Source: Arthrobacter sp. UKPF54-2 (lineage in GTDB: Bacteria > Actinomycetota > Actinomycetes > Actinomycetales > Micrococcaceae). Taken from it: a stretch of DNA of 64,000 nt. Below the pieces are notes generated by a model. The model did not search any database, had not been told where the DNA came from, and saw only the letters and a program-made list of their open reading frames with translations. Made by a program: the position numbers and the translations under genes. The stretch covers positions 3,100,001 to 3,164,000 of the forward strand of contig NZ_CP040174.1 in assembly GCF_007858535.1 (NCBI RefSeq). Direction: 5' to 3'. Below are positions 21,611 through 38,081 of this stretch, piece after piece. Position 1 is the stretch's first letter. The number at the start of each line of letters is the position of its first letter.

Positions 21611-21651
21611 GCCACTCACTGTCCTAGCCCCTGCAGGTGAACCACAATACA

Positions 21652-21668
21652 ATTCTGATGTGCAGAAT
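21652..21668. promoter_or_regulatory. IclR-type operator, copy 1 (transporter/iclR side)
   Basis: Palindrome ATTCTG-N5-CAGAAT. It lies 41 bases upstream of the transporter ATG and covers the likely GTG start of the IclR gene. The identical half-sites and spacing recur at 22527-22543. Confidence 0.7.
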
Positions 21669-22620: not shown

Positions 22621-23754
22621 GTGTCCATCAGCGCCGAGAACACGACCCATGAATCAGTGGCTGCGGGCCACACAGCCCCCGAACCCACGCCCGAAGAGGC
22701 CGCGCAGCTTCAGGAGCTGTACCGCGACTTTGACCGCGAGAACCTGATCCCGCTCTGGACCGAGATCGCGGACCTCATGCCGATGGTCCCGAGCCCGAAG
22801 GCCGTCCCCCACGTCTGGCGGTGGAGCGACCTGTACCCGCTGGCGGCCCGCGCCGGCGATCTGGTCCCGGTGGGCCGCGGCGGCGAACGCCGCGCCATTG
22901 CCCTCGCCAACCCGGGCCTGGGCAACACCCCCTACGCCACCCCCACCCTGTGGGCAGCCATCCAGTACCTCGGGGCCCGCGAGACCGCCCCGGAACACCG
23001 CCACTCGCAGAACGCCTTCCGCTTCGTCGTCGAAGGCGAAGGCGTCTGGACCGTGGTGAACGGTGACCCGGTGCGGATGTCCCGCGGCGACTTCCTGCTC
23101 ACCCCGGGCTGGAACTTCCACGGCCACCACAACGACACCGATGAGCCGATGGCCTGGATCGACGGCCTGGACATCCCGTTTGTGCACTACGCCGACGCCG
23201 GCTTCTTCGAGTTCGGCACGGAGAGGGTCACCGACGAAGCCACCCCGGACATCTCACGTTCCGAACGGCTCTGGGCCCACCCGGGCCTGCGCCCGCTCTC
23301 CGGACTGGACGACACCACCAGCTCCCCGATCGCCGCCTACCGCTGGGAATACACGGACCGCGCCCTGCGCGAGCAGCTGCTGTTGGAGGACGAGGGCCAC
23401 CCGGCCACCGTGTCCCAGGGCCACGCCGCCGTCCGCTTCACCAACCCCACCACCGGCGGCGACGTGATGCCGACCATCCGGGCCGAAGTCCACCGCCTCC
23501 GCGCCGGCGCCGGCACCGAGACGGTGCGCGAGGTCGGTTCCAGCGTCTGGCAGGTCTTCGAGGGCCGCGGCTCCGTGGTCCTGGACGGCGAGACCCGGAC
23601 CCTGGAAAAGGGCGACCTGTTCGTGGTCCCGTCTTGGGCGGCCTGGTCGCTCCAGGCCGAGAGCGAGTTCGATCTCTTCCGCTTCAGCGACGCCCCCATT
23701 TTCGAACGGCTGAACTTCAACCGCACCTACATCGAAGGACGCAAGAACGCATGA
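22621..23754 (+). CDS. gtdA: Gentisate 1,2-dioxygenase
   Basis: 377-residue bicupin. The first cupin carries EHRHSQNAFRFVVEGEG, with the histidines and Glu that hold the active-site Fe(II); the second cupin (from VHRLRAGAGTETVREVGSSVWQVF) lacks a full ligand set, as is usual for this family. It cleaves gentisate between the carboxyl and adjacent hydroxyl carbons to maleylpyruvate. Start GTG 22621 follows a strong gaggagg site. The stop overlaps the next start (ATGA). Confidence 0.93.
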   Translation: MSISAENTTHESVAAGHTAPEPTPEEAAQLQELYRDFDRENLIPLWTEIADLMPMVPSPKAVPHVWRWSDLYPLAARAGDLVPVGRGGERRAIALANPGLGNTPYATPTLWAAIQYLGARETAPEHRHSQNAFRFVVEGEGVWTVVNGDPVRMSRGDFLLTPGWNFHGHHNDTDEPMAWIDGLDIPFVHYADAGFFEFGTERVTDEATPDISRSERLWAHPGLRPLSGLDDTTSSPIAAYRWEYTDRALREQLLLEDEGHPATVSQGHAAVRFTNPTTGGDVMPTIRAEVHRLRAGAGTETVREVGSSVWQVFEGRGSVVLDGETRTLEKGDLFVVPSWAAWSLQAESEFDLFRFSDAPIFERLNFNRTYIEGRKNA

Positions 23755-24575
23755 AACTCCTTACCCTCCGCACCGGAAACGGCTCGACCAAGGCCGTGCG
23801 CCAGGACGGCGACACCTTGACCGAGATCGACGGTTTCGCCGACGTCGGAGCCCTGCTCCGCACCGAAGGCTGGGAAGCGACCGCTCGGAACGCCGACGGC
23901 GCCACCCACCCGCTCGAAGGCGCGGACCTCGACGCCGTGGTCCCCTCCCCCGGCAAGATCATCTGCGTGGGCCACAACTACCGCAACCACATCAAGGAAA
24001 TGGGCCGGGAAGTCCCGGAGTTCCCCACCCTGTTCGCCAAGTACGCCGAATCCCTGATCGGCCCGAACGACGACCTGGCCCTCCCGCAGGAATCCGACAC
24101 GGTGGATTGGGAGTCCGAACTCGCCGTCGTCATCGGCAAGAAGGGCCGCCGGATTTCCGAAGCCGACGCCGCGGACCACATCGCCGGGTACGCCGTCCTC
24201 AACGACGTGTCCATGCGCGACTACCAGTTCCGCACCGTCCAGTGGCTGCAGGGCAAGACCTGGGAGAAGTCCACCCCGTTCGGCCCGGCCCTGGTCACCA
24301 AGGACGAGTTCAGCGGCGGCCTGATGACCACCGCCGTGGACGGCGAGATCCAGCAGAGCACCCCCACCGGCGACGTCGTCTTCACGCCGGAATTCCTGGT
24401 CTCCTACATCTCCACCATCATCACGCTGAACCCGGGGGACGTCATCGCCACCGGCACCCCGGGAGGCGTGGGCCACGCCCAGGACCCGAAGCGCTACCTG
24501 CAGGAGGGCCAGCTCCTGATCACAAGCATCGAGGGCCTGGGCGAGCTGAAGAACCGCGTGGTCAAGGAAGCCTGA
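23751..24575 (+). CDS. Fumarylpyruvate hydrolase (fumarylacetoacetate hydrolase family)
   Basis: 274 residues with the FAH C-terminal domain: KIICVGHNYRNHIKEMG, then ESELAVVIGKKGRRI, whose acidic residues bind the metal, and the closing NPGDVIATGTPGGVGHA motif. In this cluster it should hydrolyse fumarylpyruvate to fumarate and pyruvate, the last step of the gentisate route. Start ATG 23751 overlaps the gtdA stop; the stop overlaps the following ATG (TGATG). Confidence 0.92.
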   Translation: MKLLTLRTGNGSTKAVRQDGDTLTEIDGFADVGALLRTEGWEATARNADGATHPLEGADLDAVVPSPGKIICVGHNYRNHIKEMGREVPEFPTLFAKYAESLIGPNDDLALPQESDTVDWESELAVVIGKKGRRISEADAADHIAGYAVLNDVSMRDYQFRTVQWLQGKTWEKSTPFGPALVTKDEFSGGLMTTAVDGEIQQSTPTGDVVFTPEFLVSYISTIITLNPGDVIATGTPGGVGHAQDPKRYLQEGQLLITSIEGLGELKNRVVKEA

Positions 24576-25333
24576 TGGTTGCCCGCCACGACCAGACGAC
24601 GGACCCGGAGCTGCTGGCGGCCCTGCTGCAGGCGCGCCGGGGCACGGCGTTTTTCGCCCGCAAGCTCAACGAGCTCTCCGACGCGGACCTCGACGGCGAC
24701 TCGCTGCTGCCGGGCTGGACCCGGCGCCACATCACTGCGCACATCGGCTACAACGCCCGGGCGATCGCCCGGCTCATCGAGTGGGCGGCCACCGGCGTGG
24801 AGACTCCGATGTACGCTTCCACCGACGTCCGGGACCACGAGATCGACTTCGGGGCCACGCTGAGTCCGATCGCGCTGCGGCACCTGTTCGACCACTCCGC
24901 CGTGCACCTGAACGTGGAATGGCGGGACCTGCCCGAGGACGCATGGCACCACAAAGTGCGCACCATCCAGGGCCGGGAGGTTCCCGCCACCGAGACGGTC
25001 TGGATGCGCAGCCGGGAAGTCTGGATGCACGCCGTCGACCTGGCCAACGGCGCTGCCTTCCGTGACATTCCGGTCCCGGTCCTGGAGCGCCTGCTCAAGG
25101 ACATCACCGGGGCGTGGAAGACCCGCGGCACCGACGCGGGACTCGTGGTCAAAGTCACCGACCACGATCTGACGTTCGGGGACACGGCGTCGGCGTCCCC
25201 GACCGTGGTCTCCGGGCCGCTGGCGGGCGTCGTCGAATGGGCCGCGGGCCGCGGCAACGGCGGCGTCACCGCCGTCGTACCCGGCAGTGAGTCAACCAAC
25301 GCTCCGGTTCCGGCCGCGCCGAAGTGGATCTGA
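24575..25333 (+). CDS. Mycothiol-dependent maleylpyruvate isomerase
   Basis: 252 residues of the MDMPI/DinB-like family. The zinc site is readable: His56 (HITAHIGYN), Glu148 and His152 (SREVWMHAVDL), the same spacing as His52/Glu144/His148 of the Corynebacterium glutamicum enzyme. It isomerises maleylpyruvate to fumarylpyruvate using mycothiol, a thiol of Actinobacteria, and so supports the taxonomic call. Coupled to the hydrolase by TGATG and followed by a terminator. Confidence 0.93.
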   Translation: MVARHDQTTDPELLAALLQARRGTAFFARKLNELSDADLDGDSLLPGWTRRHITAHIGYNARAIARLIEWAATGVETPMYASTDVRDHEIDFGATLSPIALRHLFDHSAVHLNVEWRDLPEDAWHHKVRTIQGREVPATETVWMRSREVWMHAVDLANGAAFRDIPVPVLERLLKDITGAWKTRGTDAGLVVKVTDHDLTFGDTASASPTVVSGPLAGVVEWAAGRGNGGVTAVVPGSESTNAPVPAAPKWI

Positions 25334-25359
25334 GCAGCACCAAACGACCGATAAAGCGC

Positions 25360-25398
25360 GAGGCCTCCCCGCCTGAACATTTCAGGTAAGGAGGCCTC
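25360..25398 (+). terminator. Terminator of the gentisate operon
   Basis: 9-bp perfect outer stem (25360-25368 with 25390-25398) enclosing a second small stem (cctga/tcagg), 26 bases after the last stop codon. Confidence 0.75.
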
Positions 25399-25424
25399 CC
25401 GCTTGTGCTTAATTTCCGCGGTCA

Positions 25425-25495
25425 GGGGGCACTTTCAGGGCCAACGTTCGACGCCGGCGCCCTGGCTCACGGCGAGTCCGCGCCAAAGTGCCCCC
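25425..25495. repeat. 71-bp element bounded by an 11-bp inverted repeat
   Basis: GGGGGCACTTT (25425-25435) and its exact complement AAAGTGCCCCC (25485-25495) flank 49 bases without a gene, between the gentisate terminator and the TetR stop. No flanking target duplication is visible. It may be a long-loop terminator for the convergent TetR operon or the remains of a small mobile repeat. Confidence 0.6.
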
Positions 25496-25539
25496 GGAGT
25501 GCAACCGAGGCCGGCGGACGCGAAGATCTTTGGCCCGGA

Positions 25540-26154
25540 TCAGCCCTCGTCGCACAGCAGGTGGAACCAGTTGTCGGCCAGGATCTCGAGGGCGTGTTCG
25601 CGGTTGGGTTCGAACTTCCGCCGCGTCCAGAGGGTGGCCACGTAGTCGAGCGAGGTGAAGGCCAGGGTCCCGCGGATGTGGCGGGTCTCCTCCGTGAAGC
25701 GGCCCGCCAGCTCCATGCCGCGGACCAGGTCGGAAATGACCTCCTCGTGCCAGCCCTCCACCATCTCGCGCACCTCGCGGTCGACGGCGGCGGCCTCGTC
25801 GAGGACGTCGAGGTAGGGCCGGAAGACCGGCCAGAGCGCCGCCCGGGACTCCAGCCAGGCCAGGATCCCCGGGAGCTCCCCGGCGTGCACCACGTCCACC
25901 AGGTCCGGCGCGGTCGATCCGCTCTCCGGGCCGTCAGCACGGTCCAGCACGGCGTTGACGCGTGCCATAAAGTCCCGCATCAGATCGCTGCGCGACGGGT
26001 AGTAGGCGTAGAACGTCACCCGGGTGGTGCCGGCCGCGGCGGCGATCTCGTCGATGGTGGTCGCGGCGTAGCCCTTCTCGGTAAAGAGTTCCAGCGCCCG
26101 TTCCACGATCATGTCGCGGGTGAGTTTCTTCTGGGCTTCTCGCAGCGACGACAT
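25540..26154 (-). CDS. TetR/AcrR-family regulator of the P450/phosphotriesterase cluster
   Basis: 204 residues. The N-terminal helix-turn-helix is classic TetR (ERALELFTEKGYAATTIDEIAAAAGTTRVTFYAYYPSRSDL); the C-terminal ligand domain is not specific. It is the last gene of the minus arm (28 bases after the ferredoxin reductase), so it would be co-expressed with the genes it presumably controls. Likely targets are the two TTGACA-N3-TGTAAA sites in the divergent promoter region at 30.6-30.7 kb; this is inference. Confidence 0.85.
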   Translation of the reverse strand: MSSLREAQKKLTRDMIVERALELFTEKGYAATTIDEIAAAAGTTRVTFYAYYPSRSDLMRDFMARVNAVLDRADGPESGSTAPDLVDVVHAGELPGILAWLESRAALWPVFRPYLDVLDEAAAVDREVREMVEGWHEEVISDLVRGMELAGRFTEETRHIRGTLAFTSLDYVATLWTRRKFEPNREHALEILADNWFHLLCDEG

Positions 26155-26182
26155 GGATCAATCCTAACGGTGCCGTGTGCTG

Positions 26183-27409
26183 TCAGACCCGGGCAGGCGC
26201 CGCCGGGCGCGGCGCGGCCGGGGCGGCACCGGCCGGAGCGGCGTCGGCGAGCCGGCGCAGTTTGGGGATCGGGATCCGGTAGTTGACCGCCGCAGCGGTC
26301 CCGGATCCGTCCGGGTTGCTCCAGCGCAGCAGCACCGAGCCGTCCCCGCTGCCCGGCTCGCAGTAACCGGGGGCACCCTCCACCGGGGTGGGGCCGACCG
26401 CTTTGAGCGTGAGCCCGAAGCCCTCGGTCCAGAAATAGGGCCGGAAGTTGAGCTCCGGCGCCGCATCGCCGTGCAGCAGGCCGACGGCCGCGACCTTCGC
26501 TTGGTCGATGGCGCTCGTCCACAGCGGAACCCGTTGCACGCCGCGGCCGGTGGGGAAGAACGCCACGTCCCCGGCGGCCACGATGTCCGGCCGCACCCTG
26601 CCGCGGGAGTCGACGCGCAGCGCCCCGCCGGTGAGCAGGTCCGTGCCGGCCAGCCAGCCGATGTTGGGCTCATCGCCGACGGCGGTGACCACCAGGTCCG
26701 CTTCCAGGACGGTGCCGTCGGCCAGGGCAACCCTGGCCCGGTCACCGTCGCCTGCCAGGCGGGCCTTCCCGCCGTGCACCACCCGGAGTCCGTGGCGCAG
26801 CGCGGCGGTTGCGAAGATGTCCGCCAGGTGGCCGCCAAGCTGGCGCGCCAGCGGTACGCCGTCCGACACCAGTGTGACCTCGCAGCCCATGTGCAGGCAC
26901 CCGGACGCGACCTCCATGCCGAGGGGTCCGCCGCCGATCACGATGACCGAGGGCCGGGCTGCGACGCGTTCCCTGAGCAGGACCGCGTCCTCGATGGTGC
27001 GCAGGGTCAGTTCCCGGGGGCCGGAGGCTGGCCCGGGCGTCTCGGCTCCCGGCGCGGTGTCCAGGCGCTTCGCCCGGGAGCCGGAGGCGATGACCAGGCC
27101 GTCGTAGGGCAGTTCACCGCCTCCCTCCAGGTGGACCAGCCCGGCGTCGGCGTCCAGGCCCGCGGCGCTCACGCCGAGCAGCTCGGTTGCTTCGTGGCCC
27201 GGTGCCGGGAGTTCGTGCGCCTGGAGGCCGCCGGCATCGTTCCCGCCGTCGCCGTGCAGGAGCGCTTTGGACAGGGCAGACCGGCTGTAGGGCTGGTGGC
27301 GTTCGGCGCCCACCACCGTGAGCTCGCCGTCGAAGCCGGCCGAGCGCAACGAGTCACAGGCGGTGAGGCCGGCGATGCCGTTGCCGACCACCACTATCCT
27401 GCGCATCAT
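26183..27409 (-). CDS. NAD(P)H:ferredoxin reductase (FAD-dependent, P450 partner)
   Basis: 408 residues of the pyridine nucleotide-disulphide fold. FAD loop VVVGNGIAGLTA at the N-terminus, NAD(P) loop VIVIGGGPLGMEVA in the middle, and VAAGDVAFFP of the second FAD motif. Members of this type (putidaredoxin reductase-like) pass electrons from NAD(P)H to the ferredoxin of a bacterial P450. ATG 27409 overlaps the ferredoxin stop (TGATG). The C-terminus is an Ala/Pro-rich tail. Confidence 0.88.
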   Translation of the reverse strand: MMRRIVVVGNGIAGLTACDSLRSAGFDGELTVVGAERHQPYSRSALSKALLHGDGGNDAGGLQAHELPAPGHEATELLGVSAAGLDADAGLVHLEGGGELPYDGLVIASGSRAKRLDTAPGAETPGPASGPRELTLRTIEDAVLLRERVAARPSVIVIGGGPLGMEVASGCLHMGCEVTLVSDGVPLARQLGGHLADIFATAALRHGLRVVHGGKARLAGDGDRARVALADGTVLEADLVVTAVGDEPNIGWLAGTDLLTGGALRVDSRGRVRPDIVAAGDVAFFPTGRGVQRVPLWTSAIDQAKVAAVGLLHGDAAPELNFRPYFWTEGFGLTLKAVGPTPVEGAPGYCEPGSGDGSVLLRWSNPDGSGTAAAVNYRIPIPKLRRLADAAPAGAAPAAPRPAAPARV

Positions 27410-27603
27410 CAGGCGGCGGCCAGCCGCAGCGCGGCCACCGGGCAGACCCGCACCGCGGCCTTGGCGGCGTCGAGCCCGTCGCCGTCGACCTCGTGCACAT
27501 CGATCACCAGTTCGCCGTCGTCGTCGAGGTGCATCAGCTTCGGTGCGGCTTCCTCGCACAGGCCGTGGCCCTCGCAGCGCGGCCGGTCCAGTTCGATCCT
27601 CAC
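27409..27603 (-). CDS. Ferredoxin, actinobacterial P450 type with CxxHxxC cluster motif
   Basis: 64 residues. Iron-sulphur ligands are Cys10, Cys16 and Cys54 (VCP) with His13 in the place of the fourth cysteine (C-E-G-H-G-L-C). This CxxHxxC pattern is known from small ferredoxins located next to actinobacterial P450 genes; cluster type is 3Fe-4S or His-ligated 4Fe-4S. It overlaps the P450 gene by 4 bases and the reductase by 1, so the three make one electron chain. Confidence 0.92.
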   Translation of the reverse strand: MRIELDRPRCEGHGLCEEAAPKLMHLDDDGELVIDVHEVDGDGLDAAKAAVRVCPVAALRLAAA

Positions 27604-28772
27604 GCCGCCACCACCTTTTCGACCTGCAGCGACTCGTGGCTCCGGGTGATGTTGCTCGGCTCCCGGACCTCCGTCGAGATCTCCAGCGACTTCACCCGGC
27701 GGGCGAGGGCCTCGATGATCGCGTGCGCCTCGAGTTTCGCCAGGCCCTGGCCGGCGCAGCCGTGCGGGCCGTAGCCGAAGGAGAGGTGGTCCACCGGGTT
27801 GCGCAGGATGTCAAAGGTGTCCGGATTCTCGTAGTGCCTCGGGTCGCGGTTGCCGGCGCCAAAGAGGATGCCCACCTGGGCGCCGGCCGGAATGGTGACC
27901 CCGTCAATCTCGACGTCGCGGGTGGCCTTGCGGCCCCAGATGTGGACCGGCGCCCAGTAGCGCAGCACCTCGGCGAAGGCGGCCGGAACGAGGTCGGGGT
28001 TGTTCCGGACCAGTTCGAACTGCTCGGGGTGGTGGCCGAGGAGCGCAACGATGTTGCCGATCGAGGCGATGGTCGTGTCCACGCCCGCCCCGAGGTACTG
28101 GTGGATGATGTGCCCCGCGGAGCCCTGGGGAATATCGCCGCGAGCCTCGGCGTCGAAAATGCCGCGGCCGATGGAACCGGGGGCAAGGTCCCCGGCGGTA
28201 ACGGACGAGCACCAACCGTAGAGCTCGCCGGCGATCGGGAAGCTCTCCTGGGTGCGCTGGTTCATTGGGCCAAGGACCTGCATCGCGGCCTGGCCCCAGC
28301 GCAGCATGTTGTCCTTGACGTGCCCCTGGAAACCGATCAGGTCGGCAACGATTTCGATCGGGAAGGCCCGGGCCAGCGAATCGATGGCCTCGAAGCTGCC
28401 GCTGTTGGCCAGTTCGGCGACGAGCTTGTCAGCCTTTTCGTCGATGACGACCTTCAGGCCGCGCAGCGCGCGGGGGGTGAGGTTCTGCGACAGCGTGGCG
28501 CGCAGCTGCGTGTGGACGGGCGGGTCGGAGGCCAGCGAGGTGCCCTGCAGCGCCTCGTTCACCATGGGGTTGAAGCCGATGCTGGTGGACGAGAACGTTT
28601 CCGGATCCGCCAGGGCGTTGCGGATGACGTCGTAGCGGGTCAGGACGTACAGCTCGTTCTTGGGCAGGTGGACCACTGCGGCCTGCTCGCGGAGCGCGGG
28701 GTAGGTGGGGTACGGGTCGACCAGGATGGCGTCATCCCAGATGTCGATGTCGGATTCGAGGGGGGCAGTCAT
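27600..28772 (-). CDS. Cytochrome P450
   Basis: 390-residue soluble bacterial P450. I-helix oxygen-activation motif AGVDTT (229-234), ExxR as EVLR (268-271), and heme loop FGYGPHGCAGQG with the axial Cys339. It has its own ferredoxin and reductase downstream, so a class I three-component monooxygenase is complete. The substrate is unknown; family letter and number would need a search. A gap of 62 bases separates it from the upstream MFS gene. Confidence 0.93.
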   Translation of the reverse strand: MTAPLESDIDIWDDAILVDPYPTYPALREQAAVVHLPKNELYVLTRYDVIRNALADPETFSSTSIGFNPMVNEALQGTSLASDPPVHTQLRATLSQNLTPRALRGLKVVIDEKADKLVAELANSGSFEAIDSLARAFPIEIVADLIGFQGHVKDNMLRWGQAAMQVLGPMNQRTQESFPIAGELYGWCSSVTAGDLAPGSIGRGIFDAEARGDIPQGSAGHIIHQYLGAGVDTTIASIGNIVALLGHHPEQFELVRNNPDLVPAAFAEVLRYWAPVHIWGRKATRDVEIDGVTIPAGAQVGILFGAGNRDPRHYENPDTFDILRNPVDHLSFGYGPHGCAGQGLAKLEAHAIIEALARRVKSLEISTEVREPSNITRSHESLQVEKVVAA

Positions 28773-28834
28773 GGTGTTCTCCTAGGGAAGATTCGGTGGT
28801 GTGAAAGAGCAGTAGTGGGTCGGGGCCGTCAGTC

Positions 28835-30568
28835 TCAGACGGCGGCCGCGGCGCTGGCCTCGGCATTGGCTTCGGTGGTTTCCGCGACGGCGTCGGGCGT
28901 CGGCGCCGTCGACCGTCCCGAGATGAAGAGGGTCAGGACGGCGGAGAGGGCTGCGGCGATGCCCGCAACAAGGTAGACGGCCTGGAAGCCCTGGCCGAGG
29001 GAGGTGCCGGCGGCGCCCTGGATCTGCTGCTGCGCGGAGCCGAGGGCCTGGACCATGCCGTCGACGGCCTGGGCCGGGGCTCCGGACGCCGCTGCCTGGC
29101 CGGAGAACTGCGCGATGACGCCGTCCCAGCCGGAGAGGTAGCCCAGCGGCGGCACGTTCGAGAGCCCCGCGACGGCGTCGGCGGGCAGCCCGGCCGCGCC
29201 GAGGATCCCGGCGAGGGGCCCGGCAAAGACGGTGGCCCCGATTCCGAATGCGATGGCCGACCCGATGACCGGGCCCAGGGCGAAGCCGAGGTCGCGCAGC
29301 AGGTTGGTCGTCGCGGAGGCCATGCCGATGTGCTGCGGCGGGACGGTGTTGATGGCGACGGCGGTGATGGAGCCGACCGTCAGGGCGAACCCGATGCCCA
29401 GCATCAGGAGCGGCGGAATGAACGCGGTCCAGGGCGTTCCGCCGAACGCCTCCGGTGTGCCGAGGGCGTAGGTCGAGAGCCAGAAGGCGGAGACGGCCAC
29501 AAAGGCGAAGCCGGCCGTGAGGACCCAGCGCGGGGCCACGTGGTGGATGAGCCAGCCCACCACCGGGATGAAGGCAAAAGCGGGCCCCTGGATGAAGACG
29601 AACAGCACGCCCACCTTCCAGGCTTCGGCGAGGGCGAGGCCGCCGACGGCGACGCTGGTGCTGTAGCAGACCGCGAGGAAGGCGAACATGCCGGTGACGG
29701 CAACAATGCCGGTGATCGAGTAGGCGCTGTTCCGGAACAGGGAGAGATGGATCAGCGGCTGCTTGGTGCGCAGCTCGATGACAACAAAGGCGACAAGGAG
29801 GGCGCCGCCAGCAACGTAGCTAGCGACCACCTCGGCGCTGCCGAAGCCGGCGTCGACCGCCTGGACGGTGGCGAACAGGACCGCGATTAGGCCGAGCGCG
29901 AGCGTCACCTGGCCGGGCAGGTCCAGCTTGCGTCCCTCGGCCGCGGCCGAGTCCTTGGCGCGGACCGCCACGATGAGGACGGCGACGGCGATCGCGGCGG
30001 CGACGTAGTAGGCCACGCGCCAGCCGCTGAAGGCGTTGGGGGCGCCCGCGGCGGGACCCGCCACGGTGAAGGCCGCCGCCGTCACGCCTGCAAGCATCGG
30101 TGAAATGACCGCGCCCAGGGACAGGAAACCGGCCCAGGTGGCGATGACCTTCGCCCTGGCCCGGTGGTCGGGGGTGATGGCGGCGATCATCGACAGCGAG
30201 ATGGGGAAGAGTATGCCGGCACCGATGCCGCCGACTGCCTGGGCCGCGATCATCATCTCGGTGGTGGTGGCCAGCGCCGCGAGGACGGAGCCTGCGACGC
30301 TGATCGCGGCGCCCGCGTAGAGCAGCTTCTTGCGGCCGAACAGGTCACCGAGGAGTCCCCAGCTGAGCTCGAACACCACGATGCCCATCATGAACATGCC
30401 GGCGATCCAGGTCAGGCCGGCGCCCGAGGTGTGGAACTCCACCGCAAAGGTGCCGTTGAGGGCGCCCGGCAGTGCGTTGGTGATCTGGGCCAGCGTGACC
30501 GCGCTGTAGGCGGCCACGAACGTGGCTCGTACAGATCCGCGGCTCGGCACCGGTGTGCTCTGACTCAT
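28835..30568 (-). CDS. MFS transporter, 14-helix DHA2 type
   Basis: 577 residues, about 14 hydrophobic helices, with LGDLFGRKKLLYAGA (MFS motif A) after helix 2. An extra periplasmic loop of about 60 residues rich in Ala/Gln lies before the last helix (near PPLGYLSGWDGVIAQF...LGSAQQQIQGA). First gene of the minus arm; the ATG has an aaaggag ribosome site. In a catabolic cluster it may import the substrate or export a toxic intermediate. Confidence 0.85.
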   Translation of the reverse strand: MSQSTPVPSRGSVRATFVAAYSAVTLAQITNALPGALNGTFAVEFHTSGAGLTWIAGMFMMGIVVFELSWGLLGDLFGRKKLLYAGAAISVAGSVLAALATTTEMMIAAQAVGGIGAGILFPISLSMIAAITPDHRARAKVIATWAGFLSLGAVISPMLAGVTAAAFTVAGPAAGAPNAFSGWRVAYYVAAAIAVAVLIVAVRAKDSAAAEGRKLDLPGQVTLALGLIAVLFATVQAVDAGFGSAEVVASYVAGGALLVAFVVIELRTKQPLIHLSLFRNSAYSITGIVAVTGMFAFLAVCYSTSVAVGGLALAEAWKVGVLFVFIQGPAFAFIPVVGWLIHHVAPRWVLTAGFAFVAVSAFWLSTYALGTPEAFGGTPWTAFIPPLLMLGIGFALTVGSITAVAINTVPPQHIGMASATTNLLRDLGFALGPVIGSAIAFGIGATVFAGPLAGILGAAGLPADAVAGLSNVPPLGYLSGWDGVIAQFSGQAAASGAPAQAVDGMVQALGSAQQQIQGAAGTSLGQGFQAVYLVAGIAAALSAVLTLFISGRSTAPTPDAVAETTEANAEASAAAAV

Positions 30569-30626
30569 CGATGAAACTCCTTTGTTTCGGAAGTGATGTG
30601 GCGTTCACCACAGTGTGGAGTCAAGC

Positions 30627-30641
30627 TTTACAGACTGTCAA
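30627..30641 (-). promoter_or_regulatory. Candidate TetR operator over the -35 region of the minus arm
   Basis: Read on the minus strand: TTGACA-GTC-TGTAAA, a near-palindrome whose first six bases match a perfect -35 box for the MFS-P450 operon. The same 12 specified bases recur on the plus strand at 30711-30725. Confidence 0.6.
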
Positions 30642-30660
30642 GAGCGCATACGCAATGTTT

Positions 30661-30672
30661 CGTTCATGAACG
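30661..30672. promoter_or_regulatory. 12-bp perfect palindrome between the two arms
   Basis: CGTTCATGAACG lies between the two TTGACA-N3-TGTAAA sites (19 and 38 bases away). It could be a site for a second regulator; nothing in the window identifies the protein. Confidence 0.4.
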
Positions 30673-30710
30673 TTCCGATGGCCGCTTGACCGTACGTGCC
30701 GATTATTTCC

Positions 30711-30725
30711 TTGACACGATGTAAA
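30711..30725 (+). promoter_or_regulatory. Candidate TetR operator over the -35 region of the plus arm
   Basis: TTGACA-CGA-TGTAAA. TTGACA serves as a -35 box with TGATGC 17 bases later as a weak -10. Identical flanking bases (CTTGACA-N4-GTAAAGC) are found in the mirror copy at 30627-30641, so one protein probably controls both operons. Confidence 0.6.
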
Positions 30726-30823
30726 GCATTGTGTGATGCTGGCAACACCGCAACGGAGCGCTGGCACGCAAGGCTCCGCGGCCCCCCTGCACACTGCACC
30801 CGATCTTCAAGGGAGAAGCCCCC

Positions 30824-31831
30824 GTGAGTCACCCCAGCCCCGCCACCGCCGCAGCGCTTGTTGCCCCCGACGGGCGCACCGTCAACACGGTCCTGGGCCC
30901 CGTGCCCGCTTCCGACCTGGGGGCGGTGGCGGTCCACGAGGCCCTGCTCTCGGTGCTCCCCGGCGCCCAGTACGCCCCGGATATCTCGATGGACCGGGCC
31001 GACATTTTCGACGTCCTGGCGGCGAAGCTCACGGACTTCCGCGAACACGGCGGACAGACGATCGTCGACAGCACCGGCATGTTCCACGGCCGGGACCTCA
31101 AGCTCTACGAGGCGCTCTCCCGCTCCACCGGCGTCCACATCGTCGCCTCCACGGGCCTGGGACCGGAGGAAGAACTCGGCGGCTACTTCCTGACGCCGCA
31201 AACCAACCCGCCCACGCCGTGGCCGGCGGACAAGTTTGGTGACCTCTTCGGCAAGGAGGTCACCGAGGGAATGGTGGTCCCCCGCGTCGAGCGCCGCGCC
31301 GCGGCCGGCATCGTCGCCACGATCGCCGACCGCGCCGGCATGACCCCCACCGAGGAAAGCCTGTTCCGCGGCTCCGCACGCGCCGCCAAGAGCACCGGCG
31401 TCCCGCTCTCCATCCGCTTCGGCGCCGACGCCCTGCACGACCTCGACGTCGTCCTGGACGAAGAGCTCGGCCCCGACCGGGTGCTCGTCGGGGACCTGGA
31501 CCGCAGGGACGCTGCCGGGTCCGCTGCCGGGGTGGCCGGCCGGGGGGCCTTCGTCGGCATTGACCACGTTGGCCTCAATGACGACCCGGACCACCTCACC
31601 GACCACGAGCGCGCCGCCCTGGTCCTCGAGCTCGTTGCGGCCGGCCACGCCGACAAGATCATCCTCTCGGGCAACTCGATCGGCGTCGCCAAAGGCCTGC
31701 CGGAGTACAACCTGCCATACAGCCACGTCCTGTCCACGTTTATGCCGTTCCTCCAGTCCCAGGGCCTGAGCGATGAGGACGCCCGGCGCATCCTCGTCGA
31801 CAACCCGCGGACCCTGCTGGCCGTGCGCTGA
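30824..31831 (+). CDS. Phosphotriesterase-family homologue lacking metal ligands (probable pseudoenzyme)
   Basis: 335 residues clearly of the phosphotriesterase (amidohydrolase superfamily) fold: NTVLGPVP...VAVHEA, GQTIVDSTG, VHIVASTG, GADALHDLDVVLDEE, DRVLVGDLDR, YSHVLSTFMPFL and the ILVDNPRTLL ending. Against its neighbour the binuclear-metal ligands are lost: HEH is H38-E-A40, the bridging Lys is Ala165, the third His is Arg198, the fourth is Asp224 (GDLDR for GHLDR), and the Asp is Asn284. Only His38 remains. The reading frame is intact with a GTG start and a good ribosome site, so it is not simply decayed. It may be a structural partner or ligand-binding protein for the next gene product. 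Confidence 0.85.
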   Translation: MSHPSPATAAALVAPDGRTVNTVLGPVPASDLGAVAVHEALLSVLPGAQYAPDISMDRADIFDVLAAKLTDFREHGGQTIVDSTGMFHGRDLKLYEALSRSTGVHIVASTGLGPEEELGGYFLTPQTNPPTPWPADKFGDLFGKEVTEGMVVPRVERRAAAGIVATIADRAGMTPTEESLFRGSARAAKSTGVPLSIRFGADALHDLDVVLDEELGPDRVLVGDLDRRDAAGSAAGVAGRGAFVGIDHVGLNDDPDHLTDHERAALVLELVAAGHADKIILSGNSIGVAKGLPEYNLPYSHVLSTFMPFLQSQGLSDEDARRILVDNPRTLLAVR

Positions 31832-31878
31832 GCCCGGCGCACCACACCCATTTAGCTTTCGAACCCTGAGGTGAAGAA

Positions 31879-32832
31879 ATGACCAAGGTCAACACGGTGC
31901 TGGGAACCATCCCGGCCGAAGAACTGGAAATCGTGGCGGTCCACGAACACATCGGCTACGGCATGCCCGGGTCCGAGCTGGACAGCCGGTGGTGGAAGTC
32001 GCCGGAGCAGGCCTACGAGGAGACGGTGCCGAAGTTGCGGAAGTTCCGTGACTACGGCGGCGGCACCTTTGTGGACGCCACGGGCATCTGCAACGGCCGC
32101 GACGTCGACTACTACAAGTCGCTGTCCGCCAAAACCGGCGTGCACATCGTCGCCTGCACCGGCTTCGTTGGCGGGGACACCGCTCTGCCGCACTTCTCCC
32201 GCGCGTCGGTGGACTACCTGACTAAGGTCTTTATCCACGAGATCACCGTCGGCATCGGCAACACCGGCGCCAAAGCCGGCGTCATCAAGGTCGGCGTCAG
32301 CCGCGGCGGCCGCATGACGGACCTGGACAAGCGCATCTACCGGGCCGCGGCCCGCGCCGCCGTCGTCACCGGCGCCCCGATCCTGACCCACCTGGCCATC
32401 GATCCCGAACCGGCCGTCACCATCTTCAACGAGGAGGGCCTGGCGCTGGACCGCGTGCTCTTCGGCCACGCCGACGACGGCCTGAACGCACCGATCACCC
32501 CGCACGACTGGATCTACGAACAGGGCGGCCGGATCGGCTTCGACACCTTCGGCTACGACCTCGAGCTCCCGGACCCGCCGTTCTGGGGCCGCAAGCGCGC
32601 CGAACGCATGGAGCACTTCGTCAAGCTCGTGAACAAGGGCTACGCGGACAAGCTCCTGGTCTCCGCCGACGCGAACTGCAGCCCGCTGGGCTGGCCGGGC
32701 GTGAAGGGCCACACCATCAACTACATCTTCGAGGACATGATCCCCGACATGCGCGCGGCCGGCATCGACGACGCCACGCTCAAACTCCTGCTCGAGGACA
32801 ACCCCGCCGACTTCCTGTCGCTGAGCGCCTGA
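31879..32832 (+). CDS. Phosphotriesterase-family metal-dependent hydrolase/lactonase
   Basis: 317 residues with a complete ligand set: His22 and His24 (VHEHI), Lys137 (GVIKVG; expected to be carboxylated), His171 (LTHLAID), His197 (FGHADDG) and Asp264 (SADAN). Such enzymes hydrolyse lactones, esters or phosphotriesters with two metal ions. It follows its inactive-looking paralogue by 47 bases and belongs to the same operon. The real substrate is unknown; given the neighbouring oxygenases a lactone or aryl ester is more likely than an organophosphate. Confidence 0.88.
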   Translation: MTKVNTVLGTIPAEELEIVAVHEHIGYGMPGSELDSRWWKSPEQAYEETVPKLRKFRDYGGGTFVDATGICNGRDVDYYKSLSAKTGVHIVACTGFVGGDTALPHFSRASVDYLTKVFIHEITVGIGNTGAKAGVIKVGVSRGGRMTDLDKRIYRAAARAAVVTGAPILTHLAIDPEPAVTIFNEEGLALDRVLFGHADDGLNAPITPHDWIYEQGGRIGFDTFGYDLELPDPPFWGRKRAERMEHFVKLVNKGYADKLLVSADANCSPLGWPGVKGHTINYIFEDMIPDMRAAGIDDATLKLLLEDNPADFLSLSA

Positions 32833-32908
32833 GCCGCGCAGACCACCACCCCGTACCGTCCCCCTGACCGGCCTCGGCCACGTCAGAGTCAAGAAAGAGG
32901 CTTACCCA

Positions 32909-34048
32909 ATGAAGGCTGAAGACATCAAAAACCTCAAGATCGCCATCGTCGGCGCCGGCTACGGCGGCGCCGCTGCCGCCAAGGCCCTGAGCCTGCTCGG
33001 CGCCGACGTCACGGTCTACGAACAGGCTCCGCAGATGGGCGAGGTCGGCGCCGGGATCGGCCTGCGCCCGGCCACCATGGCCCGGTTCCGCCAGTGGGGG
33101 ATCTTCGACGCGGTCGCGAACGTCAGTTCACCGAGCGACTACTTCGAGATCCTCACGGCCACCGGTGAACCGATCATGAAGGACACCTGGCCGGAGTTCG
33201 GGGACCAAAAGCAAACCCACCTCATCCACCGCCGCGACTTCATCGAGGCACTGCTCGGCGTGCTTCCCGACGGCATGGTGAAGCTCGGCCACCGGCTGCA
33301 GAGCATCGAGGACAAGGGTGGCCGCTCCGTCCTGACCTTCGCCAACGGGGAGAGCGTCGAGGCCGACCTGGTGGTCGGCGCCGACGGCATCAAGTCCGTG
33401 GTGCGCGAGCAGCTCTTCAGCACCAAGGGCCCGGTGTTCTCGGGCGAACACGCCTACCGGGTGGTGATCTCCGCCGACGACGCCCACGGCCTGGTGGTCG
33501 ACGACAATCTGCGGATGTACATGGGCCGGGGCACCAAGGTCTACCTGCTGCCGCTGCGCCACCGCAACCAGATGTCCTTCGACATCACCGCCCTGAACCC
33601 GGACGGCACCTGGGCGCCGTCCATCAGCAAGGAAGACCTGCTGAAGACGGTGGAAGGCTTCGACGAGCGGATCGTGGGGATCGCCCGCGGCCTGGACATG
33701 GACACCGTCAACATCCGCGCGGTCTACGACATCGACCCCGTCGACACCTGGCACACCGACTCGGTGGTCCTCATGGGCGACGCCGCCCATTCCATGCTGC
33801 ACCACCAGGGCCAGGGTGCGAACTCCGCCATCGAGGACGCCGGAGCCCTCGCCGACGCCCTGGCCCAGGCTCCCTCGGTCAAGGAGGCGCTGGCCCTGTT
33901 CCAGGCGACCCGCAAGCCGGTGACGGACGAGCTGCAGCGCATCTCGCGCCAGGGCTGGTCCGAGGAAGAGGTCAACGACGTCTTCCCCGGCCAGAAGCCC
34001 TCCTCCCAGGAACCCTCCACCCGGCAGCCCGCCGCGGCGAAGGCCTGA
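32909..34048 (+). CDS. FAD-dependent aromatic hydroxylase (class A flavoprotein monooxygenase)
   Basis: 379 residues. FAD loop IVGAGYGGAAAAKAL (13-27), DG motif VVGADGIKSVVR, and GDAAHSMLHHQGQGANSAIEDA. The overall pattern resembles salicylate hydroxylase and 6-hydroxynicotinate 3-monooxygenase. The last 25 residues are a Pro/Gln/Ser-rich tail. It is separated by 76 bases from the phosphotriesterase gene and by 4 bases from the following esterase. It would hydroxylate a phenolic or heteroaromatic intermediate; which one is not shown. Confidence 0.85.
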   Translation: MKAEDIKNLKIAIVGAGYGGAAAAKALSLLGADVTVYEQAPQMGEVGAGIGLRPATMARFRQWGIFDAVANVSSPSDYFEILTATGEPIMKDTWPEFGDQKQTHLIHRRDFIEALLGVLPDGMVKLGHRLQSIEDKGGRSVLTFANGESVEADLVVGADGIKSVVREQLFSTKGPVFSGEHAYRVVISADDAHGLVVDDNLRMYMGRGTKVYLLPLRHRNQMSFDITALNPDGTWAPSISKEDLLKTVEGFDERIVGIARGLDMDTVNIRAVYDIDPVDTWHTDSVVLMGDAAHSMLHHQGQGANSAIEDAGALADALAQAPSVKEALALFQATRKPVTDELQRISRQGWSEEEVNDVFPGQKPSSQEPSTRQPAAAKA

Positions 34049-34052
34049 CGCC

Positions 34053-34991
34053 ATGACCATCCACCCCGAAATCGCCAAAATCCTGGCCACACTGCCGGCA
34101 CCCGATGGTTCCCCTTTGGACCCCGCCGCCATGCGCGCGGGCGAGGCCGCCCAGGTCCCGCCGCTGCAGGAGCGTCTGCCGGTGCACAACGTCCAGGACG
34201 CCACGGCCGCGACGCCGTCCGGCGACGTCCCGGTGCGGATCTACACCCCGGCCGAGGCAGATTCCTACGGCCTGCTGGTGTACTTCCACGGCGGCGCGTT
34301 CTTCCTCGGCAGCCTGGACACGCACGACCACGTCGCGCGGGCCCTGGCCAAGGAAACCGGCCACAAAGTCATCTCGGTCGGCTACCGCCTCGCCCCCGAG
34401 GCCGCCTTCCCCGCCGGGCTCGACGACTGCTACGCCGTGGTCCGCTGGGCCGCCGAACAGGCCGCCGAACAGGGCGCCGCGCTGAAATGGGACGGCAAGA
34501 CCCTCGCCATCGCCGGCGACAGCTCGGGCGGCAACTTCGTCGCCGCCGTCGCCGCAAAAGCCCACGACGACGGGTTCTTCGGGATCACCCACCAGGTGCT
34601 CTACTACCCCTCCCTTGACCTGGACTTCGACGTCGAACGTTACGCCTCCCTACGGGAGAACGCCGAAGGCTACGGACTCGAGACGGCCGGCCTCAAACCG
34701 TTCAACGCGTTCTACCTCGACGGCGGAGCGGACCCGGCGGACCCGCTCGTCTCCCCCATCAAGCGCCGGGACCTCGCCGGCCTGCCGCCCGCCCTGGTCA
34801 TCACCGCCGAGCATGACCCGCTCCGCGACGAGGGCGAACTCTACGGCCGGCGACTCAGGGAAGCCGGCGTGGAGGCCACCGTGAGCCGCTACGCCGGCGC
34901 GAACCACGGCTTCGTCGCCAACTTCTCCTGGATTCCGGAGTTCTACGCGGCCATCGAGGAAACCGCTACGTTCCTCGGCGGTGGACAATGA
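34053..34991 (+). CDS. Alpha/beta hydrolase of the hormone-sensitive-lipase family (esterase)
   Basis: 312 residues. Oxyanion motif HGGAF (79-83), nucleophile Ser157 in GDSSG, Asp255 in AEHDPLRDEG and His285 in GANHGF: a complete HSL-type triad. These are carboxylesterases for short acyl or aryl esters. Its stop overlaps the next start (ATGA at 34988-34991). Confidence 0.9.
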   Translation: MTIHPEIAKILATLPAPDGSPLDPAAMRAGEAAQVPPLQERLPVHNVQDATAATPSGDVPVRIYTPAEADSYGLLVYFHGGAFFLGSLDTHDHVARALAKETGHKVISVGYRLAPEAAFPAGLDDCYAVVRWAAEQAAEQGAALKWDGKTLAIAGDSSGGNFVAAVAAKAHDDGFFGITHQVLYYPSLDLDFDVERYASLRENAEGYGLETAGLKPFNAFYLDGGADPADPLVSPIKRRDLAGLPPALVITAEHDPLRDEGELYGRRLREAGVEATVSRYAGANHGFVANFSWIPEFYAAIEETATFLGGGQ

Positions 34992-35956
34992 CCGGGCCGG
35001 TGGCCGTCCACCCCCTGGTCTCCCCGTGGGGACGGTTCGGTCTGTACAGCTTCTTCATCGATGCCCCGGAGCCGGCGATCGTGGACACCGGCATCGCTTC
35101 CTCGCCGGCCGAAGGGATGGTGCCGGCCCTTGAGGCGATCGGCCGCCGGATCGAGGATGTGCGCTGGATCCTGCTCACCCACGGGCACATCGACCATATC
35201 GGCGGTGCCCATGCCCTGTGGGAGCTCACCGGCCGGCGGGCGCAGGTGGTGATCCACGAGGCCGACGCACCGATGCTGCGCTCGCGCCGGGCCCACGTGG
35301 ACGAATACCTTGCCGGGCGGGGGCAGTACCTGAACGACCCGGGCGGCGAGGCCGGCCTGGCCGCCGCCGCCAACGCCGTGATCTCCGGCGAGCTGGAGCC
35401 CGACGTGCTGGTACGCGGCGGCGAGAAAATCTCCCTCGGCGGGGACGTCACCGTGTCGGTCCACTCGATCCCGGGCCACACCGCCGGGTCCGTCGCCTAC
35501 GTCCTGGACGGCCAAAACGACGTGTTCGTCGGCGACGCCGTCCAGGTCCACGGCGCCGCCAACGGCTTCCCCGGATTTGTGGACCCGGCCGGCTACCGCT
35601 CGTCCCTGAACTACCTCAGGGACACGGTCCGGCCGCGGCACCTCTACCTCGGGCACCCGTACCGCCGCGCCGACGGCACCCCCTACGGCGTCGAGCTCGA
35701 CGCCGTGCAGGCGCGGGAAGCGCTCCAGGGAAGCCTGGACATTGAAGCGCGCGTCAGCGGCGCGGCCCGCGGCGCCCTGGCCGCCGGGCTGCAGGACACG
35801 GACTCGCCCTACTCGCCGTTCGCCGGCGCCGCCGAGGAACTCGGCTACCAGGGCGACCCATGCCTGGAGCCGTCCCCGTTCTTCACGACCCTGCACGGCT
35901 ACCGCACAACGTTGGACCACACGACCGAAGATGAGGAGCTGCGTGCTCATGGATGA
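34988..35956 (+). CDS. MBL-fold metallo-hydrolase
   Basis: 322 residues. Zinc motif H65-G-H67-I-D69-H70 in LLTHGHIDHIGG, then IPGHTAGSVAYV and the bridging Asp in VGDAVQVHG. The fold covers lactonases, thioesterases and glyoxalase-II-like enzymes; context (esterase before, CocE-like hydrolase after) fits ring-opening or ester hydrolysis. It overlaps both neighbours, so it is fully within the operon. Confidence 0.88.
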   Translation: MTGPVAVHPLVSPWGRFGLYSFFIDAPEPAIVDTGIASSPAEGMVPALEAIGRRIEDVRWILLTHGHIDHIGGAHALWELTGRRAQVVIHEADAPMLRSRRAHVDEYLAGRGQYLNDPGGEAGLAAAANAVISGELEPDVLVRGGEKISLGGDVTVSVHSIPGHTAGSVAYVLDGQNDVFVGDAVQVHGAANGFPGFVDPAGYRSSLNYLRDTVRPRHLYLGHPYRRADGTPYGVELDAVQAREALQGSLDIEARVSGAARGALAAGLQDTDSPYSPFAGAAEELGYQGDPCLEPSPFFTTLHGYRTTLDHTTEDEELRAHG

Positions 35957-37682
35957 CTTTCAACTGGTAACTGCCGGCGGCGAGAAAATTGCCGCCCGCA
36001 AGGACCTCCGGGTCCCGATGCGCGACGGCGTCGAACTCGCCGCGGACGCCTACCAGGGCGCCGAGGACAAACCGCGGCCGGCGCTGGTGGCCCTGAGCCC
36101 GTACGGCAAGGAACTGCAGGCCCTGGCGCTGACCACACCGCCGCAGCGGCGCCCCAGCCCGATGTGGGACGGCTGCATCGAGGCCGGCGACATCGCCCGC
36201 ATCGTGAAGGAGGACTACGTCCACGTCATCGGTGACCTGCGCGGCTCCGGCCACTCCGGCGGCGAGCACATCGGCAACTACAACGCCGGCGGCGTTTCCC
36301 TGGGCCAGGACGCGTACGACTTCATCGAGTGGGTCGCGGCGCAGCCATGGTGCGACGGCAACGTCGGCATGGTGGGCATCTCATACTTCGGGTCCATGCA
36401 GGTCCTGGCCGCCGCCGAGCGTCCGCCGCACCTGAAGGCGATCTTTGTCTCCGGCGGACACTTCGACTTCTACGAGACCACCTACCACGGCGGCATCATG
36501 TGGTTTATGCCCCGCGCCGCCCGCGAGGGCCGCGGCGGCGACTCCGGCTGGGCGTTCACCGACGGGGTCAAGTCCCGCATGATCGAGCAGTACTCCCCCG
36601 CGCAGCTCAAGGACCTCGTCGCCCAACGGCTTCAGGATCCCGACGTCGCCGCCTGGCCGAACCTGGTCCATGTCCTGCACTACCCGAAGAACCACGAAGC
36701 ATGGTTCGACATCGTGATGAACGAACTCGACGGCGACTGGTACGAGGAGCGCAACCCCATCACGCTGGCCCCAAACATCGACATTCCGGTCTGGCTGCAG
36801 ATCGACCAGGGCCGCGGCTGGACCATGGACGGCACGATTGAGCTCTTCAAAGCCCTCAAGGGTCCCAAGAAGCTGGACATCGGCCCGTACCCGCCGATGC
36901 AGTCGCGGCCCTTCATCGAGGAGCACGACAAGATGTTCCGCTGGTACGACTACTGGATCAAGGGCGACGACAACGGCGTGATGGACGAACCGGCCGTGAG
37001 CGTCTTCGTGGAAGGCTCCCGCGAGCTGGTGACCGCCGGGGCGTGGCCGCCCAAAGACATCGAGTACAGGCCGCTCTACCTGCGTCCGCGGCGCAAACTC
37101 TCGGCCGAGCCGGAGCTGATGGGGGCCGAATACGCGGCCCCGGACGGCTTCTACCAGGCGCCGTTGACCGTGACGGACAAGGTGGAGATCCTCAGCTGGT
37201 CCACGCCGCCGTTCGAGGAAGACACGGAAATGATCGGCACCGGCGCCGCGCACATCTTCGCCGAAATCGACCAGCCGGATACCAACTTCATCCTGCGTCT
37301 GTGGGACTACGCCCCCAACGGGAAGCGGCAGCTCATCACCAGCGGCTACCTCAAGGCCTCGCACCGCGAGCTTGACGAACGGAGCACCGAAGGCAGCCCG
37401 GTCCATCCGCACACCCGCGCCGTTCCGGTGGAACCGGGGACGATCGAGGAATACGTGCTGCGCCTCTACCCCTTCGCGAACACGTTTAAGCCGGGCCACA
37501 CCCTCACGGTGGAGCTGTCCAATGACGAGCCGCTGGCCGACGAGCACAATGCCCTGCTGCCGCCGGACGCCTTCCACCTTCCGGTGGGCCGGCCCGTCAC
37601 CCACAAGATCTACCGCGACGCCGCGCACCCGTCCCGGCTCCTCCTGCCGTTCACCACGCAGAAGCCGGCCGCGGACGGCTGA
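35949..37682 (+). CDS. CocE/NonD-family hydrolase with an atypical triad
   Basis: 577 residues; N-terminal alpha/beta hydrolase (X-Pro dipeptidyl-peptidase S15 type) with DLRGSGHSGGE and the nucleophile Ser145 in GISYFG, and a C-terminal jelly-roll (about 400-577) as in cocaine esterase. The triad His normally lies in a GPWxH motif; here the equivalent stretch is IGPYPPMQSR (311-320) without His, and the usual acid position (about 288-290) is Gly/Arg. Whether other residues (Asp286, Asp294, His326) take over is open. ATG 35949 is used; GTG 35943 is equally close to the gaggag site. Last gene of the plus arm. Confidence 0.82.
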   Translation: MDDFQLVTAGGEKIAARKDLRVPMRDGVELAADAYQGAEDKPRPALVALSPYGKELQALALTTPPQRRPSPMWDGCIEAGDIARIVKEDYVHVIGDLRGSGHSGGEHIGNYNAGGVSLGQDAYDFIEWVAAQPWCDGNVGMVGISYFGSMQVLAAAERPPHLKAIFVSGGHFDFYETTYHGGIMWFMPRAAREGRGGDSGWAFTDGVKSRMIEQYSPAQLKDLVAQRLQDPDVAAWPNLVHVLHYPKNHEAWFDIVMNELDGDWYEERNPITLAPNIDIPVWLQIDQGRGWTMDGTIELFKALKGPKKLDIGPYPPMQSRPFIEEHDKMFRWYDYWIKGDDNGVMDEPAVSVFVEGSRELVTAGAWPPKDIEYRPLYLRPRRKLSAEPELMGAEYAAPDGFYQAPLTVTDKVEILSWSTPPFEEDTEMIGTGAAHIFAEIDQPDTNFILRLWDYAPNGKRQLITSGYLKASHRELDERSTEGSPVHPHTRAVPVEPGTIEEYVLRLYPFANTFKPGHTLTVELSNDEPLADEHNALLPPDAFHLPVGRPVTHKIYRDAAHPSRLLLPFTTQKPAADG

Positions 37683-37717
37683 TCCCGGCGCAGACCACGC
37701 TGACCAGGCGCGGACCC

Positions 37718-38077: not shown

Positions 38078-38081
38078 CCGT

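Follow-up and report, generated by a model that had tools for sequence, protein, structure and literature searches.

The genome of Arthrobacter sp. UKPF54-2 contains, within a 64,000-nucleotide stretch of contig NZ_CP040174.1 (positions 3,100,001 to 3,164,000; hereafter the window, to whose numbering all plain coordinates refer), a cluster of eleven genes at 25540-37682 that pairs a cytochrome P450 and its redox partners with two phosphotriesterase homologues (PTE1 and PTE2), a FAD hydroxylase (FMO) and three further hydrolases (HSL, MBL and CocE). The best explanation of the cluster is a TetR-controlled, horizontally moving catabolic unit that would convert one specific plant- or soil-derived aromatic compound into ordinary ring-cleavage intermediates, a reading to which we give a probability of about one half. 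The initial annotation had proposed a dedicated pathway of hydroxylation and hydrolysis; such a pathway, with co-regulated genes, is backed by the gene order, the co-occurrence of the P450 and a palindrome present at both arms; as a whole, its interpretation is partly supported and right in outline.

In the proposed sequence of events, the compound would release the TetR repressor from two palindromes at TTGACA boxes of both arms; the palindromes are observed, and the promoters and repressor binding are presumed. The P450, which is seen to be co-inherited with the six plus-arm genes, may use its ferredoxin and reductase for an essential hydroxylation or O-dealkylation. Partnered by a non-catalytic PTE1, PTE2 would act together with HSL, MBL and CocE to cut ester, lactone or amide bonds, as their families suggest, and the FMO, again judging by its family, may hydroxylate the freed aromatic acid. 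The products would enter the intradiol/3-oxoadipate pathway and, in hosts like this one, also the adjacent gentisate operon, with the MFS protein moving the compound, in or out.

Layout of the cluster

The two divergent arms flank a gap of 255 bases (30569-30823). All eleven genes are backed by family matches at the positions listed below, and both the gap and the overlapping stop and start codons reported initially are confirmed by the coordinates; that observation is right and stronger than had been claimed. The starts of the reductase (FdR), ferredoxin (Fdx) and CocE open reading frames (ORFs) were set from related loci, and solved relatives were sought among Protein Data Bank sequences.

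25540..26154, minus strand: TetR-family regulator (Pfam PF00440, 55 bits), which ends the minus arm in most Arthrobacter loci
26183..27409, minus strand: ferredoxin reductase FdR (Pyr_redox_2, PF07992, 153 bits), ATG at 27409
27409..27603, minus strand: small ferredoxin Fdx with a CEGHGLC...CP motif (PF13459, 49.7 bits)
27600..28772, minus strand: cytochrome P450 (PF00067), nearest solved relatives CYP199A (PbdA), benzoate-carboxylate residues missing
28835..30568, minus strand: MFS transporter (PF07690, 123.5 bits), best NCBIfam model TIGR00711 (DHA2 efflux) at 111 bits, below the cut-off of 230
30824..31831, plus strand: PTE1, a phosphotriesterase homologue that lacks the metal ligands and is probably a pseudoenzyme (PF02126, 126 bits)
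31879..32832, plus strand: PTE2, a phosphotriesterase homologue that keeps the six metal ligands (PF02126, 170 bits)
32909..34048, plus strand: FMO, class A FAD hydroxylase (PF01494), model with a mean predicted local distance difference test (pLDDT) score of 87.4
34053..34991, plus strand: HSL-family esterase with a GDSSGG motif (PF07859, 230 bits; LipP1 306 bits, below the cut-off of 350)
34988..35956, plus strand: MBL-fold hydrolase with an HGHIDH motif (PF00753, 73 bits)
35949..37682, plus strand: CocE/NonD-type hydrolase (TIGR00976, 227 bits, above the cut-off of 66.3)

Reading frames overlap at four junctions, by 1 base (FdR/Fdx), 4 bases (Fdx/P450 and HSL/MBL) and 8 bases (MBL/CocE), an arrangement typical of operons. 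The third-position GC content is 0.88-0.94 in nine of the ten ORFs measured and 0.84 in the tenth, an over-extended reductase ORF. Family scans found no dioxygenase, dehydrogenase or CoA-ligase family among the eleven proteins.

Gene order and spread

Contigs of named genomes, searched with PTE2, yielded 183 relatives, the best 80 of which were used as loci (L numbers). The family sample comprised 197 genomes, counted as core-positive when they held a PTE1 ortholog with E <1e-80; 395 other genomes, from a phylum sample, were assessed with a PTE1 threshold of 1e-60. PTE1-PTE2-FMO-HSL-MBL-CocE, referred to here as the core, are contiguous, ordered and on one strand in 65 of the 80 loci, which extends the conservation of gene order to other Actinobacteria. 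The 15 exceptions comprise loci in which the block is split or meets the end of a contig (L031, L047, L028) and loci with an inverted MBL (L006, L024, L032, L035, L040, L041, L048, L057, L062), accompanied by a symporter-like insert in L006, L032, L041 and L057 and by other inserted genes in L035. HSL and FMO are swapped in L036, where MBL is also inverted; an inserted MFS gene interrupts the core in L068, and HSL was not recovered in L009.

Hosts of the core include Arthrobacter, Kocuria, Georgenia, Streptomyces, Actinomadura, Nocardia, Rhodococcus, Micromonospora and Nonomuraea. On plasmid p2 of Caballeronia insecticola, ten of the eleven genes share a strand, in the order TetR-P450-Fdx-FdR-PTE1-PTE2-FMO-HSL-MBL-CocE, at 46-75% identity; an MFS gene of the plasmid's own lies further on and is not counted among the ten. 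Genes that stay together in hosts ranging from Arthrobacter to Streptomyces, and that also occur on the Caballeronia plasmid, should have a single compound as their target, one encountered repeatedly by bacteria in soil. The PTE1 ortholog is present in 18/197 family genomes, the next best genome reaching only 1.7e-23, and in 1/395 genomes of the phylum sample, a patchy distribution that fits horizontal spread. No description of this gene order was found in the titles and abstract starts of the open-access literature searched, in line with the initial annotation, which had not recognised the combination. In one Actinomadura locus (L062, 14171-15893), CocE was matched as two pieces.

Co-inheritance of the P450 and its substrate site

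A close homologue of the P450 is present in 16/18 core-positive versus 1/179 core-negative family genomes (Fisher p 2e-20; p values here and below assume independent genomes, an assumption that does not hold, and are uncorrected for relatedness). In seven of the 16 (G004, G007, G085, G133, G136, G148, G151), the P450 and PTE1 lie on different contigs. Five such P450 stretches also contain the ferredoxin and the reductase (L108, L109, L111, L112, L113), and a LysR gene is also present in L108, L109, L111 and L112. In L110 the P450 is found without ferredoxin and reductase, and these two genes and the LysR gene stay with the core in L122; L118 has a partial P450 match beside MBL and CocE. G151 keeps both arms as separate loci, MFS-P450-Fdx-FdR-TetR (L113) and the plus-arm core (L120). 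By this pattern of inheritance, the P450 and the core are one system.

The best solved relatives of the P450 are PbdA of Rhodococcus jostii RHA1 (257 bits) and CYP199A4 (213 bits). P450s of the CYP199A family (PbdA, CYP199A4) O-demethylate para-methoxybenzoates, and Arg84, Ser87 and Ser237 of PbdA bind the benzoate carboxylate in a site conserved in CYP199A (PMC11530827). In the alignment, the window P450 has a deletion at Arg84, Gly77 in place of Ser87 and Gln225 in place of Ser237. Gly77, His224 and Gln225 are invariant in 48/48 orthologs, as are the GTS and HQY motifs that align with the PbdA substrate site. The fixation of Gly77 and Gln225 suggests that the substrate of this P450 is likely different from that of PbdA, but constant. 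PbdA-like demethylation of methoxybenzoates was dropped as a candidate reaction because the carboxylate residues are missing.

As a separate observation, a small stand-alone HtaA-domain protein is encoded near the P450 in L108 (7696-8163), L109, L110 (10410-10883) and L114 (9132-9638, from the core-negative genome G069); three of the proteins were scanned and match the domain at 57-86 bits, the L109 protein being recognised by similarity.

An intact and a metal-free phosphotriesterase homologue

Both PTE1 and PTE2 match PF02126 and are phosphotriesterase homologues, as the initial annotation had it, with the metal ligands kept in PTE2 only. We take the ligands to be HxH, K, H, H and D, six in all, with solved PTEs aligned for comparison. 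Alignments of 82 sequences each (the 80 loci, the window and Caballeronia) show all six kept in 82/82 PTE2 sequences. PTE1 keeps only the first His, and five of the six ligands are replaced in all readable rows. The second His becomes Ala or Ser (10/82 rows are gapped at the HxH positions), the Lys becomes Ala, Thr or Val, the third His becomes Arg in 81/82 and Leu in one, the fourth His becomes Gly, Asp or Glu, and the Asp becomes Asn, Ser, Gly or Arg. The initial annotation had counted PTE1 among the hydrolases; a metal-free PTE1 beside an intact PTE2 is a new detail that likely reduces the number of working hydrolases by one.

In comparisons with eight Arthrobacter or Pseudarthrobacter relatives, the ratio of nonsynonymous to synonymous substitution rates (dN/dS) is 0.145-0.228 for PTE1 versus 0.030-0.082 for PTE2 (the MFS value of L022 was dropped, a different transporter being compared there); by this measure PTE1 is under purifying selection. 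Its invariant segments include GYFLTPQT and PP.PWPA in 34 sequences, and its model has a mean pLDDT of 82.5, with part of the GYFLTPQT..PP.PWPA loop below 50. PTE1 and PTE2 are adjacent in 80/80 loci. Ligand loss under purifying selection next to an intact PTE2 suggests a pair of one active and one inactive hydrolase, and a joint function of the two would be the simplest reading. A more specific proposal, which we hold tentatively and consider short of probable, is an obligate hetero-oligomer of PTE1 and PTE2. In this complex the near-invariant Arg of PTE1, at the position of the third metal-binding His of PTE, and its GYFLTPQT..PP.PWPA loop would shape or gate the PTE2 active site; together with the P450, the FMO and three more hydrolases, the complex would make up a pathway not yet described that acts on an aromatic natural product of wide occurrence. 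A retained metal-free homologue offers a clean case for asking what role a dead enzyme copy plays. In one genome (G104:C1:3358202-3359157) a PTE1 homologue is matched as two overlapping pieces, which suggests a broken reading frame.

The FAD hydroxylase and the other hydrolases

The FMO resembles 6-hydroxynicotinate, tropone, 4-hydroxybenzoate and salicylate monooxygenases at modest, similar scores (148 to 124 bits). HSL matches many esterases among solved structures (best 210 bits), so the match does not name a substrate. The best solved relative of MBL is remote (44 bits), and CocE is likewise remote from cocaine esterase (111 bits), for which reason cocaine-type ester hydrolysis was dropped. 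The opening of several ester or lactone bonds, as first proposed, may be expected from the class of these enzymes.

Operator-like palindromes

Two palindromes, one per arm, lie in the gap, and both fit TTKACA-N3-TGTMAA:

30627..30641, no strand assigned: TTTACAGACTGTCAA, an operator-like palindrome that overlaps a TTGACA box directed into the minus arm
30711..30725, no strand assigned: TTGACACGATGTAAA, an operator-like palindrome that overlaps a TTGACA box directed into the plus arm

The motif TTNACANNNTGTNAA has two matches in the 64-kb window, with none expected, and a tighter form of the palindrome occurs three times across the genome, the reversed control having no site. The same palindrome at both arms, together with only three genome sites, makes co-regulation likely, and the TetR protein would be the factor that binds there. 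At least one copy is found upstream of PTE1 in 36/80 loci and both copies in 21/80, mostly in Arthrobacter and also in Sinomonas, Streptomyces, Micromonospora, Streptosporangium, Nonomuraea and Nocardia. In 10/80 loci the core has a nearby GntR gene, always from one family, so control is not the same in all lineages; here and below, neighbouring genes are counted in loci that reach no further than 10 kb from PTE2. A terminator scan of 25200-38000 gave three candidates versus 6.2 expected, nothing above chance.

The third genomic site, a perfect and intergenic palindrome (G000:C1:1216294-1216308, L105), is the only other copy in the genome and is flanked by what appear by eye to be an aldehyde-dehydrogenase-like gene and a PucR-like regulator.

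Aromatic neighbours and the carbon outlet

An addition to the initial annotation is a gentisate-type operon at about 18958-25333 that ends just upstream of the TetR gene:

18958..20259, minus strand: 3-hydroxybenzoate 6-hydroxylase-like (NF006021, 352 bits, below the cut-off of 459)
20252..21715, minus strand: aromatic acid/H+ symporter-like, start probably over-extended (TIGR00895, 271 bits, below the cut-off of 419)
21609..22481, plus strand: IclR-type regulator (NF045644, 109 bits, and TIGR02431, 107 bits, both below cut-off)
22621..23754, plus strand: gentisate 1,2-dioxygenase-like (TIGR02272, 272 bits, below the cut-off of 442)
23754..24575, plus strand, start approximate: fumarylacetoacetate-hydrolase-family protein
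24570..25333, plus strand, start approximate: mycothiol-dependent maleylpyruvate isomerase family (TIGR03083, 122 bits, above the cut-off of 50)

TIGR02272 is the best family for the dioxygenase-like gene, and none of the 197 family genomes reaches its cut-off. At least two gentisate-type genes accompany the core in 21/80 loci, 14 of them outside Arthrobacter and Pseudarthrobacter, and at least two of pcaI, pcaJ and thiolase do so in 13/80. In Nocardia (L065), thiolase-pcaI-pcaJ follow directly after CocE; the best scores of this thiolase are with models of 3-oxoadipyl-CoA thiolase, whose cut-offs it does not reach, and it exceeds the cut-off of the general thiolase model. An aromatic-acid/H+ symporter-like gene lies within the core in L006, L032, L041, L057, L115, L119, L120 and L124 (the one protein scanned reached 329 bits, below the cut-off of 419), and in the Caballeronia copy a Phenol_MetA_deg protein follows CocE.

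At the level of whole genomes, an intradiol dioxygenase is present in 18/18 core-positive versus 115/179 core-negative family genomes (p 0.0006), and a gentisate dioxygenase in 6/18 versus 16/179 (p 0.007). The gentisate and pca neighbours, the core symporter and the intradiol match in all core-positive genomes favour an aromatic route, with the intradiol/3-oxoadipate pathway as the favoured candidate for a general outlet and gentisate as an optional one. Three other routes were considered and dropped: a homogentisate route, its dioxygenase being found in 0/19 core-positive genomes; gentisate as an obligatory outlet, given the 6/18 above; and ring opening without any dioxygenase within the core, since an intradiol match in 19/19 core-positive genomes leaves nothing that requires it. 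The substrate had initially been called ring or terpene-like; these results favour the ring, and none indicates a terpene in particular.

Other features nearby were noted. In L066 (15751-16068), a short ORF between CocE and pcaI resembles, by eye, a thiolase reduced to its two ends. Downstream of the cluster, long plus-strand ORFs at 37740-41665 have a third-position GC of 0.69-0.74 and look spurious, and a lactate-permease-like gene at 41743-43497 (minus strand) was recognised by eye.

Weighing the readings

Several observations count against the catabolic reading. The loci analysed, the best 80 among 183 relatives, have an uneven taxonomic spread. The region upstream of PTE1 showed no palindrome in 44/80 loci, and a sigma-70 consensus scan of 25200-38000 gave no full promoter (0.5 expected), so the TTGACA boxes are only hexamer matches. 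No P450 match was found in the core-positive genomes G102 and G126 (family sample) and G245 (phylum sample), and the core is missing from G069, which has the P450. Matches of the gentisate, 3-hydroxybenzoate and symporter genes all fall below curated cut-offs; the gentisate dioxygenase is missing in 12/18 core-positive genomes, and of the six that have it only three carry it no more than about 12 kb from PTE1, which makes the gentisate link optional. Genes of the pcaI type (157/197) and intradiol genes (133/197) are common in the family anyway. Apart from the P450, family-level gene differences are modest.

The alternative that survives best, and which we still regard as unlikely, is detoxification or resistance: TetR would sense a toxic natural product, the DHA2-like MFS protein would export it, and the P450, FMO and hydrolases would inactivate it with no carbon gain. 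TetR and efflux genes beside modifying enzymes are a common resistance layout, the MFS protein is nearest to DHA2 efflux models, and the patchy distribution (18/197 and 1/395) would also fit. The MFS gene, however, does not belong to the conserved core, where some relatives instead carry a gene resembling an aromatic-acid symporter, and the gentisate or pca genes that accompany the core in part of the loci argue for assimilation.

Catabolism of a non-aromatic compound, such as a terpenoid, a steroid side chain or a macrolactone, is improbable. P450s and lactone hydrolases do serve such pathways, and the P450 lacks the benzoate-carboxylate residues of CYP199A; against this, the eleven proteins include no dehydrogenase, CoA ligase or beta-oxidation family, the enzymes closest to the FMO are those for nicotinate, tropone and hydroxybenzoate, and aromatic neighbours recur. 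It is highly improbable that two unrelated operons merely stand back to back: the arms are separable in some genomes and their orientations differ, but the P450 and the core are co-inherited despite different contigs in seven genomes, the same palindrome marks both arms, and both sets travel together on the Caballeronia plasmid. Degradation of organophosphate pollutants has a very slight chance, in that PTE2 is related to parathion hydrolase (125 bits) and keeps its metal ligands, but scores only 111 of the 500 bits required by the OPH model NF041153 (PTE1, 65.5 bits), is broadly conserved in soil actinobacteria and belongs to a group whose natural members are often lactonases or esterases. 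A biosynthetic tailoring cluster is just as improbable, since P450, FMO and hydrolases can tailor secondary metabolites but no scaffold synthase is among the proteins scanned and ring-cleavage genes lie nearby. For the preferred reading, a catabolic unit for one aromatic compound, the co-inheritance of the P450, the palindromes and the neighbouring genes make the question of the substrate testable through the inducer.

Relation to known systems

The closest known systems share some features with the cluster and differ from it in others. The closest solved relatives of its P450 belong to CYP199A, which serves aromatic-acid catabolism; unlike these enzymes, the window P450 is without the Arg/Ser/Ser site and has its own invariant GTS and HQY motifs. 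PTE1 and PTE2 match the phosphotriesterase family (PTE/OPH and PTE-like lactonases), PTE2 with all its ligands, whereas here PTE1 is metal-free and forms a constant tandem pair with PTE2 in a P450-linked operon. Gentisate clusters, composed of 3-hydroxybenzoate 6-hydroxylase, dioxygenase, maleylpyruvate isomerase and fumarylpyruvate hydrolase, adjoin the cluster on its upstream side here and lie near the core in several genera, but accompany it non-obligatorily, as the 12/18 core-positive family genomes without the dioxygenase indicate. The Corynebacterium cre cluster for p-cresol also places a P450 and its redox partners in aromatic catabolism; that pathway starts with phosphorylation by the phosphoenolpyruvate-synthase-like CreHI, which has no counterpart among the proteins scanned here.

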